A stretch of 38,189 bases of DNA, taken from positions 1 to 38,189 of the forward strand of contig CADDZJ010000033.1 in assembly GCA_902812415.1 (NCBI GenBank), read 5' to 3'. A program made the translations under genes and the position numbers. Origin of the DNA: Acidobacteriota bacterium. Lineage in GTDB: Bacteria; Acidobacteriota; Terriglobia; UBA7540. Shown here piece by piece: positions 15,705 to 25,493 of the stretch. The notes below the pieces were generated by a model. It saw only the letters and a list, made by a program, of their open reading frames with translations. It ran no database searches and had not been told where the DNA came from. Every line of letters starts with the position of its first letter. Within the stretch, counting starts at the first letter, position 1.

Positions 15705-16077
15705 ATTTTCTCCATAAAAAGTCGTGCGCGTTGATGGCGGCGCAACGCAGCCTCTGGCCGTAGCCCAAGGGACTGTCATTCTTCGCTTCGCTCAGAGTGA
15801 CAAGGCCCAGAGTTCTTGCCCCAAAAGCAAGGATTCACGATCTCTCAGCGCAGCGTCTTGAGCCGTTCATGAGCTTCGAGCAGCGCTTTTCCCGCACCCG
15901 AGGCGCTGATCATCAGTCTTTTGCGCTTGGCATGCCGTCTCCGTTGAGGGGCAGCCAGGAAACCGGGTCTTGCCGAAAATTTGGCTCGGCGCTGGCGCTG
16001 AAATGAAGCTTAGCCCAAAACATCTCGAATTGCCATATGATCATAGGCGGCAGGCGCGCATCACAAAGACTGCTTCT
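15705..16077. other. Divergent intergenic region between galT and the sugar kinase
   Basis: It should carry promoters for both divergent genes. The only clear structure is a palindromic repeat at about 15776-15802 (TGTCATTCTTCGCTTCGC, then TCAGAGTGACA), a member of the dispersed family seen at 1868, 7888 and 29653. I found no convincing -35/-10 pair. Confidence 0.4.
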
Positions 16078-17082
16078 ATGCGCTACTTTATCGGAATCGA
16101 CGGGGGAGGAACCCGGACGACGGCATGGCTGGCGGAGGAAAATGGCCGCATCCTCGGCCAATCCATGGCAGGCCCATCCAATCCTCTTAAAGTCGGAATT
16201 CAGGTTGCCGCGCGGCATTTAGTCGTCGCAGCGCGGCAAGCGCTGCGGCAGGCGCATCAGAAGCCCATCGCAGTGGAAGCCGTTTGTGCGGGCGTCGCCG
16301 GAGTGGATCGTTCCTCGCTTCATCGCTCGCTGCTCGCCGCCTTGCGGAAGCGGATTCCCGCAAGGCATTATCTGCTCACCCTCGACGCGGTGATTGCCTT
16401 GCAAAGCGCCGTGGGCTTTTCTCCGGGCATCATTGTGATTTCCGGAACAGGCTCCATCGCCTATGGCCGGGATGAACAAGGCTGCACTCTGCGCTGCGGA
16501 GGCTGGGGGTCAACCTTTGGCGATGAGGGATCGGGATACGATCTGGGCCGCAAAGCCGTGATGGCCGCCCTGAAGGATTTCGATGGTCGCGGCCCGCACA
16601 CTCAGCTTAGCGAGAGCATTTGCAAGGCGCTCCGGCTTACGAGCATCAACCAGGTGGTTCGAAAGCCGCTCACCGCCCCCCAGATTGCCGCGCTGTTTCC
16701 CGTGGTGTTGGATGCTGCAAACCGGGGAGATCCGGTTGCGCAAAGACTCTGTCGTGAGGCGGGGCAGGACCTTGCCGAATTAGCCTGGGTGCTTCTCAAA
16801 CGCCTGGATTCTCGCCGGCAGCCAATTCCTATCGTCTGCGCCGGAGGAGTCTTTAAGGCAAGCTTAACCGTACGGCAGAGCTTCGCTTCCCACTTGCGTC
16901 GAAAAGCCGGAAAGCGGATTCCTGTGAGCCTGCTTGAGCGCTCGCCGGTCGAGGGCGCGCTTGATCTTGCGCAGGCCGTGGCCGGGGGAAAATATGAAGC
17001 CGCGCGGGGCCGCAACCCATGTGGCACGGCCGTCTCGGCCGTGGGCGCGGGCGGGATGCCCCTGACAGGTAAGGAAAATTGA
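16078..17082 (+). CDS. N-acetylglucosamine kinase-like protein (BadF/BadG/BcrA/BcrD ATPase family)
   Basis: The product is 334 residues with the ASKHA fold. The phosphate-1 motif FIGIDGGGTRTTAW is at residues 4-17, followed by a GVAGVDRSS segment, the phosphate-2 region VISGTGSIAYG, GGWGSTFGDEGSGYDLG (a hallmark of eukaryotic-type GlcNAc kinases and bacterial relatives) and a C-terminal adenosine motif PIVCAGGVF. It probably phosphorylates an amino sugar; the deaminase-like SIS gene 147 bases downstream supports GlcNAc or glucosamine. The ATG at 16078 starts directly at the fold. The last 20 or so codons run through a perfect hairpin repeat (17025-17043), giving an odd tail TAVSAVGAGGMPLTG. 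Benzoyl-CoA reductase or 2-hydroxyacyl-CoA dehydratase activators share the fold but have a cysteine-liganded Fe-S cluster that is not seen here. Confidence 0.82.
   Translation: MRYFIGIDGGGTRTTAWLAEENGRILGQSMAGPSNPLKVGIQVAARHLVVAARQALRQAHQKPIAVEAVCAGVAGVDRSSLHRSLLAALRKRIPARHYLLTLDAVIALQSAVGFSPGIIVISGTGSIAYGRDEQGCTLRCGGWGSTFGDEGSGYDLGRKAVMAALKDFDGRGPHTQLSESICKALRLTSINQVVRKPLTAPQIAALFPVVLDAANRGDPVAQRLCREAGQDLAELAWVLLKRLDSRRQPIPIVCAGGVFKASLTVRQSFASHLRRKAGKRIPVSLLERSPVEGALDLAQAVAGGKYEAARGRNPCGTAVSAVGAGGMPLTGKEN
17025..17043 (+). repeat. GC-rich perfect hairpin inside the kinase 3' end
   Basis: CACGGCCG (17025-17032) and CGGCCGTG (17036-17043) pair perfectly over a TCT loop. The surrounding GTGGCACGGCCGTCTCGGCC resembles small dispersed repeats found in several bacterial phyla; here it is translated as the kinase C-terminus. 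Confidence 0.6.
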
Positions 17083-17229
17083 TGCAAGCCGCAAACATTT
17101 CGACCCTTAGTGGTACAAAGCTGCGCCAGGCATCCTTCATCTGGCAAGTTCGGGACCGCCTTCTTCGCGGTAGAATAGCCGCTCGTTTGATTTCTCATTT
17201 CCACACCTTGACGGAGATTCAGACCTGAT

Positions 17230-18264
17230 ATGTCCCTGATGATGAATGAAATTCTGGAGCAGCCCCAGGCTCTCCAGCGAACACTCAAGGCGGAGCGCGA
17301 CCATGCGCGCGATTTCAGCGCCTTTGCGCAAAAACGCAGATTTCGCCTGATTGTGCTGGTGGCGCGCGGAACTTCTGATAATGCCGCGCTTTTTGGGCGC
17401 TACCTTCTGGAGCTGACCACCGGCATTCCGGTTTCGTTATGCGCGCCGTCGATCCACACCATTTACCACGCCAGGCTCGATTTGCGGGAGACCTTGGTGG
17501 TGGGCATTTCCCAATCCGGCGAAGGCACCGACATCAATCTGGTGCTCGAATCGGCGCGACGCCAGGGCGCTTATACTGTAGGGATCACGAACGAGTCTCG
17601 GTCCGCTATGGCCCGCGTCGTTCACGAAGCATTTCTGGCGCGAGCCGGAAGGCAGCGATCCGTGGCGGCCACGAAGACCTACACCACGCAGCTTCTGCTT
17701 TTGTATATGCTTGCTTCGGCCCTGGGACATGAGATCACGCTTGCTGACATCAGCGAGCTTCCTGGCCGGGCCCGGGAAGCGCTGAAGCTGGCTCCCGCGA
17801 TCCGGGAATTGGTGGAACGCTACCGTTACATGCGGCAGTGCGTGGTGGTGGCTCGAGGTCTGAATTACGCCAACGCCTTTGAGCTTTCGCTGAAGCTGAT
17901 GGAGACCTGCTATGTGGTCGCCGAACGATTCTCCTCCGCGGATTTCCTGCACGGGCCGATCGCGCTGATTGAAAGAGATTTCCCGGTGCTTATCTTCATG
18001 CCGCCGGGTAAAACATTCAGCGGCATAAGAAAACTCGTGCAGCGATTGAAAGGGCTGCACGCCGAAACGCTGGTGATCACTTCCGCCCGGTCACAGTTGC
18101 CAGGGATGACGCGAGCCGTTCGGTTGCCCGGAGAAATTCCGGAGATTTATACCCCCATCCCCTACATCATTCCCGGACAGATCTTCGCCGCCATGCTCGC
18201 CGAAGTGAAGGGTCTTGATCCCGATAAGCCCCGCTCTCTCCAAATTGTGACTCAAACGAGATAA
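17230..18264 (+). CDS. SIS-domain glucosamine-6-phosphate deaminase-like protein (NagB-II / GlmS C-terminal type)
   Basis: A 344-residue protein with two SIS domains like the isomerase half of GlmS but without the N-terminal glutaminase domain. Visible features are VARGTSDNAALFGRYLLE (the GlmS GRGTS-like segment), GISQSGEGTDINLVLESARR and AATKTYTTQLLLLYMLAS, then a second SIS domain with FSSADFLHGPIALIE. Lack of the glutaminase domain favours deamination of glucosamine-6-phosphate to fructose-6-phosphate. It follows the GlcNAc-like kinase, which would supply the phosphorylated sugar. The ATG at 17230 has GGAG thirteen bases upstream; a start at 17242 is possible. A TAGAAT at 17171-17176 could be a -10 box. 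Confidence 0.85.
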   Translation: MSLMMNEILEQPQALQRTLKAERDHARDFSAFAQKRRFRLIVLVARGTSDNAALFGRYLLELTTGIPVSLCAPSIHTIYHARLDLRETLVVGISQSGEGTDINLVLESARRQGAYTVGITNESRSAMARVVHEAFLARAGRQRSVAATKTYTTQLLLLYMLASALGHEITLADISELPGRAREALKLAPAIRELVERYRYMRQCVVVARGLNYANAFELSLKLMETCYVVAERFSSADFLHGPIALIERDFPVLIFMPPGKTFSGIRKLVQRLKGLHAETLVITSARSQLPGMTRAVRLPGEIPEIYTPIPYIIPGQIFAAMLAEVKGLDPDKPRSLQIVTQTR

Positions 18265-18677
18265 TACCTGCCGAACCCAAGGCGGGGCTTTGGTATACCT
18301 GTTGAGGGGTAGTGATCCGGAGATATGCACGAAAACCAGCCTTGGAGCGGCGCTGTCCTCGGCAGATACTTACCTCCTGAGAGATAGTCCAATCGCCTCG
18401 ACAGGCTGAGATTACTTCAGCTTCCAACGATCTTTTGACCGCATTGCGAGCTTTCAAGGGTTTTTTAGTGATGAAGCCGTCCGGCTCACCTTTATCTGGT
18501 GCAGACCCGGGGGATCAACCCACGCAAGACTTGGCTTCCCGCGAGCCCAGCTCACCGGGAGGAATAACCGAGTTCCGTGGAATCTCCTTCCTTGCCGTGT
18601 CTCATGTCGCTACTTTCAGACGTTCGGCGGGCGCATATTCAAGAAGGTCAACTCGATGGGAAGCGGTCAGGAGCAAG

Positions 18678-18831
18678 TTAAGTCGGTCGAAAATGCCATC
18701 CGGTCATGTAATCAGGGTGAGAAATCGGTTGCACGACTTGACCGGTGGCTAGAATCTGACCGACCTCCTTGAGAGTAATAGGTGTGCGTTTGCACTCTAC
18801 GAAGGCGAGCTCTGTGCCTCGGCCCAGGCAC
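18678..18831 (-). pseudogene. Fragment resembling a PD-(D/E)xK nuclease domain
   Basis: On the minus strand, just outside the inverted-repeat element, the frame reads LGRGTELAFVECKRTPITLK, then EVGQILATGQVVQP and stops at 18678. The hydrophobic strand followed by VECKR matches the ExK half of PD-(D/E)xK nucleases, and the helix with VGQIL that follows is also typical. The upstream part is replaced by the element at 18832-18957 and no continuation is recognisable beyond it. I take it as a remnant; the short length makes chance resemblance possible. Confidence 0.35.
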
Positions 18832-18957
18832 TTACAGGTTGCTGAAAAATGTGTAGAGGCGGGTTTATCCCGCCATCGACGCCTTGAGAACATTGGAGTT
18901 CTAGCGACGTCAAGTCGCCGCGAGCACCAATTTTCGGAGTTTTTCAGCGACCTGTTA
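18832..18957 (+). mobile_element. 126-bp inverted-repeat element (MITE-like or IS remnant)
   Basis: The left end TTACAGGTTGCTGAAAAA matches the reverse complement of the right end (TTAACAGGTCGCTGAAAAA) with one substitution and one indel. CAGGTTGCTGAAAAA-type ends resemble those of insertion sequences, but there is no room for a transposase. The interior has a short hairpin (GGCGGGTTTATCCCGCC). It abuts the nuclease-like fragment on its left. Its ends differ from those of the 107-bp element, so it is a separate family. Confidence 0.6.
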
Positions 18958-19453
18958 AAAGTTGCCTGCTGTGTTGCGGGCCGATTTTACGACCCGGTTG
19001 CGACCTAAAAATGCGGAGCGCAAATCCGATGGCCCGCGCGACCGGTGCCGAAGTGGGAAAAAGTGTCTCAAATGTCTCATCCGTCTCCCTCGGTGCTGCC
19101 CGCTCTGCTATGCTGAAACCGCGATGAAATGCCAGGATGTGCTGCGGCTGGAAGGCCCTGGCGCAAGGGAAAGCGAACCGAGGATATGATTGAAAACACA
19201 GGGAGTTGGAAAAATAACATGCGAGTCCCGATTTGGATTCAAGGCCAGGGGCGAGAGCGTGCGCGCTGCGGTGGGTCTTGGGGCGAAGGCGGCGAAGAAT
19301 CTGGAACTGAGCGGTTAGCATGGAGTTGTCTTGTAGTTTCGTGCTTCCCTCGAGCACGAGAATCCGCCTGCGAGCCACTCTGCTCCCGGCACGCTCCCTG
19401 CATGATATACTGATTCTGAAGTCCTGATGGAGGCGAAGGGAGTCGTCGGAAGA

Positions 19454-20668
19454 ATGAGCAATCGATTTCGTTACCTGTTGATGGGCGTTTCGCTGGTGCT
19501 GGTTTTCTATATTGTCATCGGCGGGGTTCTCGGCAGCAGCAATTCGACCAACGAGCAAACCTACAAAGACCTTGGCGTTTACAGCGAAGTTCTCTCGCGC
19601 ATCAAAAGCGACTATGTGACTGAGCCAAGTTTGCCAAAGGTGACCAACGGCGCCATCCGCGGACTTCTGGAAGCCTTGGATCCTTACAGCACCTACTTCA
19701 CCCCCGAACAATTTAAAGAGTATCAGGAGCATCCCGATCCGGGGCCGGCAAGCGTGGGCCTCTTCGTCTCCAAGAAGTTCGGATTTGCGACCGTCATTTC
19801 GGTGCTGCCCGGCAGCCCGGCTGATAAAGCAGGCATCAAGCCTGCGGATTTGATTGACCGCATCAATGGCAAGCCCGTCCGTGAGCTTTCAGCGGTGCAA
19901 ATCGAGCGGAAGCTTGCCGGCGAAGCCGGGACAACTGTGGATATATGGGTGGTGAATGAATCGCGGGGCGAGCCTCAGAAAATGACCCTAACCCGCGTGG
20001 TTCTGGCCCCTCCGCCCGTTTCAGCCAAAATGGTGGACGACCATACCGCGTATGTGCGCGTGGATACCTTCAATCAGGGAAAAGCGGAGGAAGTTTCCGC
20101 CGCGCTCAAGAAGCTGATGGCGCAGGGAGCCAGCAAGATCGTGCTGGATTTGCGGGATTGCGCGGGCGGCGAAGTTGAAGAGGCGGTTAAAACCGCCAGC
20201 TTGTTTATCGATAAAGGTTTAATTACCTACACGCAGGGCCAGCGCAGCCCCCGCCATGATTTCATGGCTGAGCCGATGGGCACGGTTTTCAAACAGCCGC
20301 TGGCTGTGCTGATCAATCGCGCCACCGCCGGCCCGGCGGAGATTGTGGCGGCTGCTGTCCTGGGCGATAAACGCGGAGACGTGGTGGGCGTTCCCAGCTT
20401 TGGCGTCGGAGTGGTGCAGAAAACAATCCCTGTCGGCGACGGCTCCGGATTGCTCCTTTCCGTGGCGAAATACTACGGGCCTGACGGCAAGGTGATCGAG
20501 GATAACGGCGTCACACCCAACGTGATGGTCCCCAGCCCCGGCGAAGTGGCGAGCCTTAGTGGCGGCCCGCTGGTGACTCCGCAGCAGTTCGGCACCAAGG
20601 ATGATATTCAATTGCAGAAAGCGATTGAAGTTCTGAGGCAGGAATATACCCCCGCCAAAGCAGCCTGA
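19454..20668 (+). CDS. S41 (CtpA-like) C-terminal processing protease homologue lacking the catalytic dyad
   Basis: A 404-residue protein with an N-terminal membrane anchor (LLMGVSLVLVFYIVIGGVLG), a PDZ domain (about residues 90-160; VISVLPGSPADKAGIKPADL) and an S41 core (DLRDCAGGEVEEAV onward). Active relatives have TASAAE/SASASE followed 25 residues later by FGKG. Here these read TAGPAE (Gly293 for the Ser) and FGVG (Val318 for the Lys), while the surrounding residues AEIVAAAVLGD and VVGVPSFG are well conserved. It is therefore predicted to have no protease activity and to act as a scaffold or substrate-binding protein at the membrane. The ATG at 19454 is preferred; 19427 is an in-frame alternative. 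A YibQ-type deacetylase gene follows. Confidence 0.88.
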   Translation: MSNRFRYLLMGVSLVLVFYIVIGGVLGSSNSTNEQTYKDLGVYSEVLSRIKSDYVTEPSLPKVTNGAIRGLLEALDPYSTYFTPEQFKEYQEHPDPGPASVGLFVSKKFGFATVISVLPGSPADKAGIKPADLIDRINGKPVRELSAVQIERKLAGEAGTTVDIWVVNESRGEPQKMTLTRVVLAPPPVSAKMVDDHTAYVRVDTFNQGKAEEVSAALKKLMAQGASKIVLDLRDCAGGEVEEAVKTASLFIDKGLITYTQGQRSPRHDFMAEPMGTVFKQPLAVLINRATAGPAEIVAAAVLGDKRGDVVGVPSFGVGVVQKTIPVGDGSGLLLSVAKYYGPDGKVIEDNGVTPNVMVPSPGEVASLSGGPLVTPQQFGTKDDIQLQKAIEVLRQEYTPAKAA

Positions 20669-20781
20669 TGCAACGGGTAACCGGCGCCTGGAATTCAGGC
20701 GCGGCCAGCACAAACAATCCCAGGGGGGCTTGTGCGAGTCGGGAGCTACTCGCTTTCAGAGCTGCATAATCCATCATCGTA

Positions 20782-21972
20782 GTGAAACGACGTAAAAAGA
20801 AGGCTTCTTACCCCTACCGCTCGATTTTACTGATCTCCCTGTCTCTCACCGCTATCGTTGTTCTCAGCGTGTTTTTTATTACCCGACATCGCAGACGGCC
20901 CGTTTCGCGTCTAAAGCGCGGGCCGAGGGTTGCGACGCCTGCCCGCCGCATGATCCGCGCGGAAATAGCGGAGCGCTTTCACCGCAGGATTGAGGAAGCG
21001 GGCGGAGAGGATATCTGGATTCGGCGAGCGGCGTGTCCTGATACGCCCTCGTCTGATCCGGCGATGTTCTGGGATGTGATGGCGACGCCGCACGTTTACG
21101 ACAAAGTCCTGGCTGCCTTTGAGCAAGGCGCGCGGGAAGAGCATCTGGCGGTTCGTGAGAGGCGCGTGGCCACGTTGCCCAAAGGCCATCGTCTGACCGA
21201 GATCACGCTCTCCTCAGGCCGTGAAATGATTGGCGAATGGCAGTTGCGTGAAGCGCCTCAAATCGCGCGCATTGCGGTGGTCATTGATGATTTAGGCCAG
21301 AACCTTGCTGCGGCGCGGGCTTTACTGCGAATTCGCGCTCCTCTCACTTTTTCCATCATGCCTCACCTGCCTTATTCGGAGGAAACTGCCCGGGAGGCGC
21401 ATCAGCAAGGCGTTGAGGTGATGCTTCATCTGCCCATGCAGCCGCTGGCGGACTCAGCCCCCGACGTGAGCGCGCGTGAGATCAAAGTGGGAATGGGGCG
21501 GGATGAAGTGGCTCGGATTTTTGAAAATGATCTTGCTTCGGTGCCCTACGCATCGGGGGTGAACAACCACATGGGCTCGCGGGCCACAAGCGATCGCAGG
21601 CTGATGGAAGAGGTCATGAACCAGCTTGCCCGCCGGCGTCTCTTCTTTATCGATAGCCGCACCACGGCAGAGTCTGTCGCGCTCGACGTCGCCCGCGAGG
21701 ATCGGGTGCCTGCTTTCTATCGCTCGGTTTTTCTGGACGACACTCGAAGCGTGCCTTATACCCTCCGACAGTTTCATGAACTGGTCCGGGTGGCGCAGAA
21801 GAACGGGGTGGCGCTGGCGATTGGCCATCCTTATCCGACAACCATTGCCGCCCTCGCCCAGGCTCTGCCGGAACTGGAACGAGAGAATATCCAACTCGTC
21901 CGCGCTTCCGAACTCGTTCACTTGCCCGAAGTGGCTCATTTGATGCCGCCCCGCTCGCGCCCGCTGCTCTAA
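20782..21972 (+). CDS. Divergent polysaccharide deacetylase (YibQ / DUF610 family)
   Basis: The 396-residue product has a very basic N-terminus (MKRRKKK), a membrane anchor (about residues 12-34), a linker, and a C-terminal domain of about 220 residues starting IAVVIDDLGQNLAAARALL. It continues with FSIMPHLPYSEETAREAH, VEVMLHLPMQP, GVNNHMGSRAT, FFIDSRTT and LAIGHPYP, the conserved set of this NodB-related family; the Asp-Asp and His residues are present. It is probably exported and tethered, acting on an envelope polysaccharide. The start is a GTG at 20782 without a clear ribosome-binding site, 113 bases after the S41-like gene. In many bacteria ctpA and yibQ-type genes lie together behind envC; no envC is seen here. 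Confidence 0.88.
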   Translation: MKRRKKKASYPYRSILLISLSLTAIVVLSVFFITRHRRRPVSRLKRGPRVATPARRMIRAEIAERFHRRIEEAGGEDIWIRRAACPDTPSSDPAMFWDVMATPHVYDKVLAAFEQGAREEHLAVRERRVATLPKGHRLTEITLSSGREMIGEWQLREAPQIARIAVVIDDLGQNLAAARALLRIRAPLTFSIMPHLPYSEETAREAHQQGVEVMLHLPMQPLADSAPDVSAREIKVGMGRDEVARIFENDLASVPYASGVNNHMGSRATSDRRLMEEVMNQLARRRLFFIDSRTTAESVALDVAREDRVPAFYRSVFLDDTRSVPYTLRQFHELVRVAQKNGVALAIGHPYPTTIAALAQALPELERENIQLVRASELVHLPEVAHLMPPRSRPLL

Positions 21973-22200: not shown

Positions 22201-23106
22201 TTGAAGGCGCTGATCATTCACGGCGATGATTTTGGGCGCTCGCCGCAGGTGAACGCCGGCATCCTGCATGCGCATCGACGCGGGGTGTTGACCAGCGCCA
22301 GCCTGATGGTGGCTGAGCCGGCATGCGGAGAAGCGGTCGCTGCGGCTCGGGATTGCCCTGATCTGGATATTGGGCTTCACGTGGTGGCTTGCAATGGCCG
22401 CAGTCTGCTGCCCGCTCGCCATCTGCGGGGGCTGGTGGACGAGCAGGGATTTTTCCCTCGCAGCGAGGTATGGGCAGGCTTGCGATATATGTTCAACCGC
22501 AGCCTGTGCGCCAGATTGCGGGATGAGTTCCGAGCGCAGATTGAGCGACATCTGGAATTAGTAGGCTCTCTGAGTCACCTGGACGGCCATCATAACTTGA
22601 ATTTACATCCGGCTCTAGCCGATATTCTGATCGACCTTGCTGCGGAATATCGCGTGCCTTATTTTCGCCTGGTGCGCGAGCCCGTCATCACGACGCTCAG
22701 GCTTGCTTCCGATCATGCGCCGCGCAAGATCAGAGACTCTCTCCTGTTCCGCTGGCTCTCCGCTCGCGCCTGCCGGAAATTGCAAGAACGCGGTCTTGAG
22801 GGAAACGATTGGACCTTCGGCTTCCTTCAGACCGGCAACATGACGGAGCGCTACGTGTTGGGCGTGCTCGCGCGCTTGCCTGAAAATAGCGTAACGGTGT
22901 TCTATTTTCATCCGGCCCTTGAAGTGTCTCACCAGCCGCCATTATGGCCATCCCAAGCTGTTGAAACCCGAATACTGACCAGTGACAACATTCGCTCCGC
23001 GATCCGCCAACATCACATCGAGTTGACGACTTACCGCGCATTGGCAGGCATCAAAGCGCCTTCCGAACGGCTCCAAGACCTTCCAAGCCGTGCAACATCT
23101 TATTGA
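22201..23106 (+). CDS. hpnK: Hopanoid biosynthesis deacetylase HpnK (ChbG/YdjC family)
   Basis: In hopanoid producers HpnK removes the acetyl group from N-acetylglucosaminyl bacteriohopanetetrol made by HpnI. The 301-residue product has the ChbG/YdjC-type metal motif HGDDFGRSPQVNAGI at the N-terminus, IGLHVVACNGRSLLP, and LSHLDGHHNLNLHPALADIL with the metal-binding histidines, then FYFHPALE. The start is a TTG at 22201 with GGAG about six bases upstream. Assignment to HpnK rather than a chitooligosaccharide deacetylase rests on the overall pattern and on the HpnI-like gene nearby. The 107-bp element lies directly upstream. Confidence 0.85.
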   Translation: MKALIIHGDDFGRSPQVNAGILHAHRRGVLTSASLMVAEPACGEAVAAARDCPDLDIGLHVVACNGRSLLPARHLRGLVDEQGFFPRSEVWAGLRYMFNRSLCARLRDEFRAQIERHLELVGSLSHLDGHHNLNLHPALADILIDLAAEYRVPYFRLVREPVITTLRLASDHAPRKIRDSLLFRWLSARACRKLQERGLEGNDWTFGFLQTGNMTERYVLGVLARLPENSVTVFYFHPALEVSHQPPLWPSQAVETRILTSDNIRSAIRQHHIELTTYRALAGIKAPSERLQDLPSRATSY

Positions 23107-23207: not shown

Positions 23208-23260
23208 TAGGGAGCGGTATGGCGTTAATACGGGGATATATCAAACACCACACCTGCCGA

Positions 23261-23266
23261 TATAAT
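23261..23266 (+). promoter_or_regulatory. Possible -10 box (TATAAT) for the HpnL-like gene
   Basis: A perfect TATAAT lies 27 bases before the TTG proposed as the start of the next gene. A good -35 is not visible at 16-18 bases upstream, so the promoter is tentative. Confidence 0.35.
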
Positions 23267-23293
23267 ACAGATGTGGACGTTAGCGGAGCACAA

Positions 23294-24301
23294 TTGAGCC
23301 TCGAACACACGCCGGAAGAAGAACCGCTCTTGGCGGGAAAGCCACCCGCCAGCAGGCGCATGAAATGGATTCAAAATATCCTGGCTTACGGTCTTGCCCT
23401 GGGAATTATCGTTTACCTCGCTCGCGGCACTTCATTGGGAGAATTTGCGGCCATTCTGCGCCACGCGAACCCCTGGTGGTTTCTGCTGGCGTGCGCAGGG
23501 TCGTTCGCCTTCTGGTTTTTAGGGGAAACTTATCTTTTTGCCAAACTTTTCAGCTATTTTCACGCGCGCACCACGTTTCGTGAGATGCTGCCCGCGAACG
23601 CCGCCCAATATTTTCTGCAGGCGATCAATCAAGTGGCGGGAGGCGCAGCCCTGGTGTTTTTCATGCGCCGGCGCAAGGGCGTGCCTCTATTTTCAGGCGG
23701 CGCAACCATGGCCTTCCTGGGGCTTGTCGACGTTCTGGTGATGGCGCTGATGGGATTGCTGGCGGCCATCCTGGTGCCGGGTTCACTCCTGCGCGCCGCC
23801 TGGTATTATCCGGTCGCCATCACGGCGGGAACCTGCCTGATTGCGTGGTTCTGGCTTCGTGGACGCCCTTCCTCCCGACTGCTGCGATGGATTTACGAGC
23901 GACCTTCGCTCCTCAGTTTCCGTCAGGCGCGCCTTTCGCACTGGGTGCGGCTGATGCTGATCCGCGCCCCAATCTTTGCCGCCCAGGGCTTTATGCTCTA
24001 TTACCAACTGGCCAGCTTCGGCATTCACGTGCCTTTGGTGCAGGTGTTGGCCTTCGAACCGGCAGAACTTTTCCTGAGCGCCCTTCCAATCACCCCTGCG
24101 GGTTTAGGCATCCTTCAGGCGGTGTTAATTCTGGGCTTCCATTCCTATGGTTCGCGCGCCACGTTGCTGACGGTGGGTCTTGCGATCAGCACGATGGGCA
24201 TTGTGATGCGCTTGCCTCTCGGCATTGGCGCAGCCGGAACGTTCGCTCGCGAAGTGACCCAGGCGCAAAAGCCACAGACCTTGGCCGCAGCCGAATCGTA
24301 G
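23294..24301 (+). CDS. hpnL: HpnL-like integral membrane protein (LPG synthase TM-domain family)
   Basis: A polytopic protein of 335 residues with about eight membrane segments and no catalytic synthase domain. It shows ILAYGLALGIIVYLARG, an NAAQYFLQAINQVAGG segment typical of UPF0104/YbhN-like proteins, and a C-terminal LPITPAGLGILQAVLIL. Proteins of this kind occur in hopanoid clusters as HpnL, with a proposed role in lipid transport. I choose the TTG at 23294 because GGAG lies five bases upstream and a TATAAT precedes it; an ATG at 23360 and the longer frame from 23219 are alternatives. The HpnL name rests largely on the neighbouring hpnK and hpnI. Confidence 0.75.
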   Translation: MSLEHTPEEEPLLAGKPPASRRMKWIQNILAYGLALGIIVYLARGTSLGEFAAILRHANPWWFLLACAGSFAFWFLGETYLFAKLFSYFHARTTFREMLPANAAQYFLQAINQVAGGAALVFFMRRRKGVPLFSGGATMAFLGLVDVLVMALMGLLAAILVPGSLLRAAWYYPVAITAGTCLIAWFWLRGRPSSRLLRWIYERPSLLSFRQARLSHWVRLMLIRAPIFAAQGFMLYYQLASFGIHVPLVQVLAFEPAELFLSALPITPAGLGILQAVLILGFHSYGSRATLLTVGLAISTMGIVMRLPLGIGAAGTFAREVTQAQKPQTLAAAES

Positions 24302-24341: not shown

Positions 24342-25493
24342 TCAACCAATCTCTTCCATTTCACCCGTGGGCAGCAACCGCAGTTTTCGCCCTCGCCATT
24401 CAACCGTATCGCCCTGGAGGCTTGCCAGCCAGACGATTTGCATAAGGAGGTCTTTGAAGGGCACAAGCAGAAGCTCTGAGATGCGCACCGGCAGGCGCAG
24501 AACGGCGGCATAAGTCCAAGCGGTGAGGCCCAGGCGCGCCGCGAGCGTCAATCCTGCAACGGCAACCCAGGGCATGCCGAAACCGGAGGCCAGCAGCAGC
24601 ATCAGCGCCCAGAAAGGCCCGTTAATCAGCATCCGAGCCAAGCTTAAGGGCCGGATCTTGCGATCCACGCGCGCCCAGCGCAGTTGGTGGTCCCAAAAAT
24701 CCCGAAAGGTCAGCTTCTCGGTCACCATGGTGACAATCGACCTGGAAAGCCGAATCCGGTAACCCTGAGCCGCCACCCTGCGCGCCAGGGCAAAATCATC
24801 ACCGAAGGAATTCTTCACCGCTTCAAGTCCGCCCGCCTCTTTCAAAACGCTTTGCCGGACCGCGACGGTCGAAGCGAAGGCGTGGCGCATGGGCTCCAGA
24901 TAATAAGAAAGGATCGCCGTGGGAGTGAAATCCGTATTGATGAAGAGCGCCTCAAGCTTCGCCCCAAAAGTGCTTTGTGGAGCGATAGCCTTGTAGGCGC
25001 ATGTGACCATTCCGATTTTCTTCGTCTCGTCAAGCTCTGCCACAATGCGCCGCAGGTAGTCGCGATCTACCCGCACGTCGGCATCGCTCATTACCAGGAT
25101 TTCTGACGCCGGCGGCTGGCGCAGCATGCGCAAAAGCTTGCCGACTTTACGATTGGTGGAATCTTCATCACCGACAGTTTCCGTGATTCGCGCTTCAGGA
25201 TAGAGTCGCCTGATCTCATCCAGCGCGCTTACGGCAGGATCGTCCTCGGTCGTGATGCCGAAGATGAATTCCTTGCCAGGATAATCCAGATCCATGAAGC
25301 TTTTGAGATTCGGAAGCAGGTGTTCATCCCAACCATGGAGCGGCTTGAGCAAGGCTACTGTAGGCGGGTCGGCGGGTAAGGGAGGCATCGTTGCAGCACG
25401 GCGGCTGAACAAAATTCCCGTCGCCCAAACCAAAAGATAATAAATCAGTGAGGCACAGCAGCCGAACAGGAAGAAGTCACGAAGAAGAGTCAA
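24342..25493 (-). CDS. hpnI: Glycosyltransferase HpnI (hopanoid N-acetylglucosaminyltransferase)
   Basis: HpnI adds N-acetylglucosamine to bacteriohopanetetrol at the membrane. The 383-residue product has an N-terminal membrane segment (FFLFGCCASLIYYLLVW), a GT2 ceramide-glucosyltransferase-type domain with VALLKPLHGWDEHLLPNL, the metal-binding SDADVRVDRDYL, NSFGDDFALARRVAAQGYRI and HQLRWARVDRKIRP (QxxRW equivalent), and C-terminal membrane helices. The start is a TTG at 25493 with AAAGGA just upstream. It converges on the HpnL-like gene with a 40-base gap. Ordinary ceramide-type glucosyltransferases are the alternative; the hpnK neighbour favours HpnI. Confidence 0.85.
   Translation of the reverse strand: MTLLRDFFLFGCCASLIYYLLVWATGILFSRRAATMPPLPADPPTVALLKPLHGWDEHLLPNLKSFMDLDYPGKEFIFGITTEDDPAVSALDEIRRLYPEARITETVGDEDSTNRKVGKLLRMLRQPPASEILVMSDADVRVDRDYLRRIVAELDETKKIGMVTCAYKAIAPQSTFGAKLEALFINTDFTPTAILSYYLEPMRHAFASTVAVRQSVLKEAGGLEAVKNSFGDDFALARRVAAQGYRIRLSRSIVTMVTEKLTFRDFWDHQLRWARVDRKIRPLSLARMLINGPFWALMLLLASGFGMPWVAVAGLTLAARLGLTAWTYAAVLRLPVRISELLLVPFKDLLMQIVWLASLQGDTVEWRGRKLRLLPTGEMEEIG

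Follow-up and report, generated by a model that had tools for sequence, protein, structure and literature searches.

The window, meaning the whole 38,189-nucleotide stretch of DNA analysed here, is contig 33 of the draft genome of a soil Acidobacteriota bacterium (4.84 Mb in 261 contigs), whose nearest named relatives are metagenome-assembled genomes of Terriglobia and Acidobacteriota. It carries a gene for a member of the S41 C-terminal processing peptidases (CtpA/Prc), followed by a gene for a YibQ-type deacetylase (Table 1). The family assignment is based on the S41 core and PDZ domain, and on the NCBIfam model prc (TIGR00225), which the protein matches at 1e-66 with 225 bits, above the cut-off of 218.6. 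The open frame comprises 413 codons, and the methionine at codon 10 is taken as the likely start because it is invariant among aligned relatives, making a product of 404 residues more likely. Residue numbers are those of the 413-residue frame, which coincides by chance with the numbering of Pseudomonas aeruginosa CtpA (S302, K327, Q331); Gly302 and Val327 are the Gly293 and Val318 of an earlier, sequence-only reading of this DNA.

Table 1. Coordinates of the S41 gene, its parts and the adjacent deacetylase gene in the window
Feature	Coordinates	Strand	Basis or remark
Gene for the predicted S41/CtpA-family pseudoprotease	19454..20668	+	Conserved start at 19454; open frame from 19427
N-terminal hydrophobic helix, probable inner-membrane anchor	19454..19540	+	Sequence; AlphaFold helix 12-35
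PDZ domain, residues about 107-195	19745..20011	+	Pfam PDZ_6 (1.8e-10)/PDZ_2; structural match to PDZ of CTP and DegS
S41 core domain, residues 207-367	20045..20527	+	Pfam Peptidase_S41 (PF03572), 2.4e-40
Tyr87 replacing the CtpA His84 equivalent	19685..19687	+	
Gly302 codon GGC replacing catalytic Ser	20330..20332	+	
Val327 codon GTC replacing catalytic Lys	20405..20407	+	
YibQ/SddA-type divergent polysaccharide deacetylase	20782..21972	+	113 bp downstream of the S41 gene; Pfam Polysacc_deac_2, 5.1e-78

The deacetylase gene has the IDD and H motifs of its family (VVIDDLG, MLHLPMQP, NNHMGSR and GHPYP), and lies downstream of the S41 gene on the same strand, as in an operon of the envC-ctpA-yibQ type. 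The sequence-only reading had described such a trio as a conserved envelope gene group in many bacteria. A single operon of envC, ctpA and a YibQ orthologue is documented in P. aeruginosa (PMC12569750), but in Escherichia coli envC adjoins yibQ and ctpA is missing from the pair, and no EnvC gene flanks the S41 gene of the window, the nearest recognised upstream gene being that of a SIS-domain protein (17230-18264). The E. coli YibQ protein (SddA) deacetylates denuded glycan strands (PMC12440217).

Further upstream, the region 15970-18264 holds N-acetylglucosamine kinase-like and NagB-II/GlmS-SIS-like genes, an arrangement that fits amino-sugar recycling, and the 1.1 kb or so before the S41 frame (18265-19426) contains no recognised gene, Rfam family or above-chance promoter pattern. 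On the other side, the S41/YibQ pair adjoins genes of hopanoid type, encoding an HpnK-like YdjC deacetylase (22201-23106), an LPG-synthase-TM flippase-like protein (23219-24301) and, on the opposite strand, an HpnI-like glycosyltransferase (24342-25493). Rfam and tRNA scans of the window returned nothing, and promoter and terminator patterns in it were no more frequent than expected by chance. No PBP gene lies near the S41 gene of the window; the two Transgly genes of the genome are on other contigs (C4 and C56).

Active S41 peptidases carry a serine in the motif (S/T)AS(A/S)AE and a lysine in FGKG. The corresponding motifs of the window protein, TAGPAE and FGVG, align to those that hold the catalytic Ser and Lys in solved structures of CtpA, with Gly302 at Ser302 and Val327 at Lys327 of P. 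aeruginosa CtpA, and with Gln331 retained. The loss of both catalytic residues claimed from the sequence is thus borne out, and the S41 alignment offers no different invariant Ser/Cys/Lys pair in their place. Two points absent from the sequence-only reading can be added: the window protein has Tyr87 at the position of CtpA His84, where 24 of the 25 intact-type S41 paralogues in Acidobacteriota keep a histidine, and the LDLRxNPGG motif reads LDLRDCAGG. In P. aeruginosa CtpA, S302A or K327A singly abolishes activity in vivo, H84A lowers activity, and Q331A has little effect (PMC11021448). Judged by its residues, the window protein is a well-supported candidate for a pseudoprotease, an S41 protein of CtpA/Prc type that has lost catalysis. 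The same genome encodes three further S41 proteins (L002, L003 and L004) that keep both Ser and Lys and are 28-39% identical to the window protein, so the cell is not without Ctp activity.

The sequence-only reading had also held that the surroundings of the two motifs are well kept and do not reflect random decay, and here the evidence is in agreement. The frame is open, and between members of the genus and family the rough dN/dS is 0.07-0.16, of which only the order of magnitude is safe given a dS (1.3-2.9) near saturation. The gene is under purifying selection, and it evolves more slowly than its YibQ neighbour (dN of 0.14-0.26 versus 0.36-0.53). An AlphaFold model computed with 55 relatives (pLDDT 80.5, with low confidence at residues 30-71 and 372-383) has the CTP fold, matching the CtpA structures of Helicobacter pylori and P. 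aeruginosa with Z scores of 36-38 over about 330 residues, and includes a C-terminal helix at residues 394-406. A draft genome in 261 contigs could in principle yield a decaying pseudogene or an assembly error, but about 150 independent genomes, including some assembled in one or a few contigs, show the identical dead state, and together with the dN/dS these relatives reduce that explanation to a negligible probability.

The dead form is far more widespread than the sequence-only reading supposed, extending across much of the phylum. Of 299 genomes sampled from the class, 280 contain a close homologue at E <= 1e-60; of 297 sampled from the phylum, 141 contain one at E <= 1e-55. In the family of the window, each of the 29 relatives examined carries Gly302 together with V, M, I or E in place of the lysine, so the Gly/Val state is not due to chance. 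Likewise, in a scan of a separate collection of genomes, the best 80 matches were all from Acidobacteriota, and its 80 named loci without exception have Gly at 302 and lack Lys at 327. For 20 genomes belonging to other families in the phylum, the best matches have Gly in 19 cases and Lys in none.

For a sample of 166 distinct sequences, ranked by similarity to the window protein and so descriptive of its clade rather than of all S41 proteins, neither catalytic residue is present in 149, both in 12, Ser only in four and Lys only in one. With the dN/dS given above, this is the pattern of a pseudoenzyme under selection. Position 302 is Gly in 150 sequences and Ser in 16, whereas position 327 may be Asp, Val, Ile, Ala, Glu, Ser, Leu, Thr or others; Glu305, Gly326 and Arg243 are invariant. 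As for the fixed Gly/Val pair that the sequence-only reading suggested looking for, the dead state is fixed in a clade and Gly very nearly so, but Val is not. Because all four GGN codons are used for Gly302 within the clade, the glycine is retained by selection. The alignment indicates a nucleophile position nearly fixed as Gly and a base position that has been released and has drifted, and Gly302 probably matters for the present function, for instance because it makes room in the former active-site cleft for a chain to bind.

In a tree built without the two motif columns, the dead clade is split from the intact S41 paralogues of the phylum at 100/99 support, and under a two-state model the clade ancestor had Gly at 0.998 and a residue other than Lys at about 1.0. 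By this tree, the dead form is one old clade that arose by one ancient loss. Ser-bearing members fall at four places within it. In family f8 (loci L048, L056, L175-L179, L181-L183, L186, L187, L190 and L191), which is nested within the dead clade, Ser and Lys are both found in 12 of 12 genomes, one of them a single-contig assembly. A loss-only model requires 15 losses of Ser and 13 of Lys, and is worse than a model that allows regain by 15.2 (Ser) and 12.2 (Lys) log units; these models are simple and refer to a single tree that leaves the joint placement of f8 and f9 ambiguous. Since 15 separate Ser losses would otherwise be needed, both residues were probably regained in f8, and activity may have returned with them. 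All Ser codons within the clade are TCN, as opposed to AGY in 21 of 24 intact paralogues, which agrees, if softly, with a fresh origin of the serine, although three intact paralogues also use TCN and a GGN to AGY change takes fewer steps. Members of f8 have Tyr for His84, and their second oxyanion Gly is replaced by Glu, Asp or His. A fuller course of events, in which a single loss of the active site at the base of this phylum-wide clade was followed by rebuilding, with Ser first, in the f8 and f9 ancestor, and Lys later, in f8, giving a possibly active protease with Tyr for His84 and an altered oxyanion motif, is tentative and on balance unlikely. A few genomes of the window's family also encode members of a separate S41 clade (L072 and L073) of a half-dyad type, in which Ser and His are kept and Lys is replaced by Thr (FGTGTVL).

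The genes next to the dead form differ between families, as counted in named loci and coded genomes that may overlap, such that the counts are not independent. In the window's family (f1), YibQ follows the S41 gene in 25 of the 31 genomes that could be used and is absent beside it in the other six; it also follows in some genomes of f6, f9 and f12. In f10, Acidobacteriaceae and Korobacteraceae, the next gene in 31 of 35 usable loci is instead a class A PBP (PBP1a) that combines a Transgly with a Transpeptidase domain. It usually lies on the same strand at a distance of 28-364 bp and is often followed by a PASTA protein; YibQ is not nearby in these 31 loci. The two settings are joined at a locus of the window's family (L095), which has PBP1a directly upstream and YibQ downstream. 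Neither PBP nor YibQ was found as a shared neighbour in f4, f5, f7, f8, f13 or other classes, and a mixed Pfam scan of downstream genes in the other classes, where longest-frame calls are unreliable at high G+C, gave no common partner. The proposal that the inactive homologue stays beside YibQ is consequently true of the window's family and parts of a few others, and these counts rule out YibQ as a universal partner. In part of the window's family (L080, L085 and L089), the S41 gene is directly preceded by genes for an LptD-N-like protein of about 790 aa, encoded on the minus strand, and for an RDD-domain protein.

With its dyad and histidine lost, its fold kept under selection since an ancient origin, and its gene repeatedly linked to peptidoglycan genes, the protein has about an even chance of being a non-proteolytic, membrane-anchored PDZ/S41 binder that serves peptidoglycan synthesis or remodelling, with a PBP or YibQ as client. 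The gene neighbours make a binding or scaffold role the most likely one. The N-terminal helix would hold the protein to the inner membrane, with the PDZ and S41 domains in the periplasm, where the PDZ domain and the old substrate cleft could bind C-terminal tails or unfolded segments of peptidoglycan enzymes. Enzymes so bound would be held, sequestered or positioned rather than cut, making the protein an adaptor, anchor or decoy; likely clients would be the class A PBP in Acidobacteriaceae-type genomes and the YibQ/SddA-type deacetylase in the window's family. Proteolysis in the window cell would be covered by the three intact S41 paralogues, and relatives of CtpA and Prc are known to act on peptidoglycan hydrolases (PMC11021448, PMC6050968, PMC5686067). 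The client could be something else, as several families have neither neighbour, and it also counts against this reading that YibQ, the second proposed client, evolves faster and is missing beside the S41 gene in six of 31 f1 genomes.

The main rival to such a binder is a dead regulatory subunit that joins oligomers of the cell's active S41 proteases, gating them or recruiting their substrates. A dead partner fits the CtpA hexamer, in which one subunit per dimer is switched on (PMC11021448), and the modelled C-terminal helix and three intact S41 proteins of the genome are in keeping with it, but the window protein shares little identity with these paralogues (28-39%) and is not encoded beside them, so that this role is unlikely. 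The sequence-only reading had proposed a special case of the binder, a scaffold presenting an envelope substrate specifically to YibQ. The adjacency in f1 and in parts of f6, f9 and f12 speaks for it; the six f1 genomes without YibQ alongside count against it, and since the yibQ neighbour is not general and PBP linkage is frequent, a deacetylase-only role is less likely than a broader peptidoglycan role and must be considered improbable. It is more improbable still that the protein cuts by a displaced or different nucleophile, for example Cys245 beside the oxyanion glycines, or Lys332. In favour of this, Cys245 is fixed in f1, and both Gln331 and Lys332 occur often. However, just 86 of 166 sequences have Cys at position 245 (otherwise Ser, Ala, Asn, Val or Thr), and Cys245 was rejected because its conservation is limited to f1 and some Terriglobales. 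The clade has no other invariant Ser/Cys/Lys pair, and at the first oxyanion/P1 Gly (CtpA G246), where a change to Met severely impairs CtpA (PMC11021448), about 60% have Glu, Ser, Asp, Ala or another residue.

By degrading hydrolases, proteases of the CtpA/Prc type adjust the growth of the cell wall. That an abundant soil phylum keeps a dead CtpA form beside a cell-wall synthase or a deacetylase of glycan strands suggests a level of control that works without proteolysis, and its dead, half-dead and re-armed relatives provide a clean natural set for asking whether enzymatic function can be rebuilt after loss. Natural S41 pseudoenzymes are known as a kind, but no description of an Acidobacteriota S41 pseudoprotease was found in the open-access papers searched, where this clade is apparently undescribed; one may exist elsewhere. 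What could go beyond known pseudoenzymes is family f8, in which Ser and Lys appear to have been rebuilt.

Among known systems, CtpA of the P. aeruginosa LbcA-CtpA pair (PDB 7rpq/8sxe) has the same domain order and fold as the window protein (about 35% identity, Z about 36) and is likewise encoded beside a YibQ orthologue, but Ser302, Lys327 and His84 are replaced in the window protein by Gly, Val and Tyr, and its gene has no EnvC gene adjacent. The best structural match to the model, H. pylori CtpA (Z 37-38), is an active protease, and its S300A/K325A/Q329A triple mutant is man-made. An S41 fold that binds ligands with no protease function is seen in the interphotoreceptor retinoid-binding protein (IRBP/RBP3), which matches the model at Z 19; IRBP, however, is a vertebrate protein that binds retinoids and lacks the CTP arrangement with a PDZ domain. 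Closest in proposed role are the NlpI and LbcA adaptors of Prc and CtpA, which bind peptidoglycan enzymes without cutting them, yet these are outer-membrane TPR lipoproteins whose fold is unrelated to that of the window protein.
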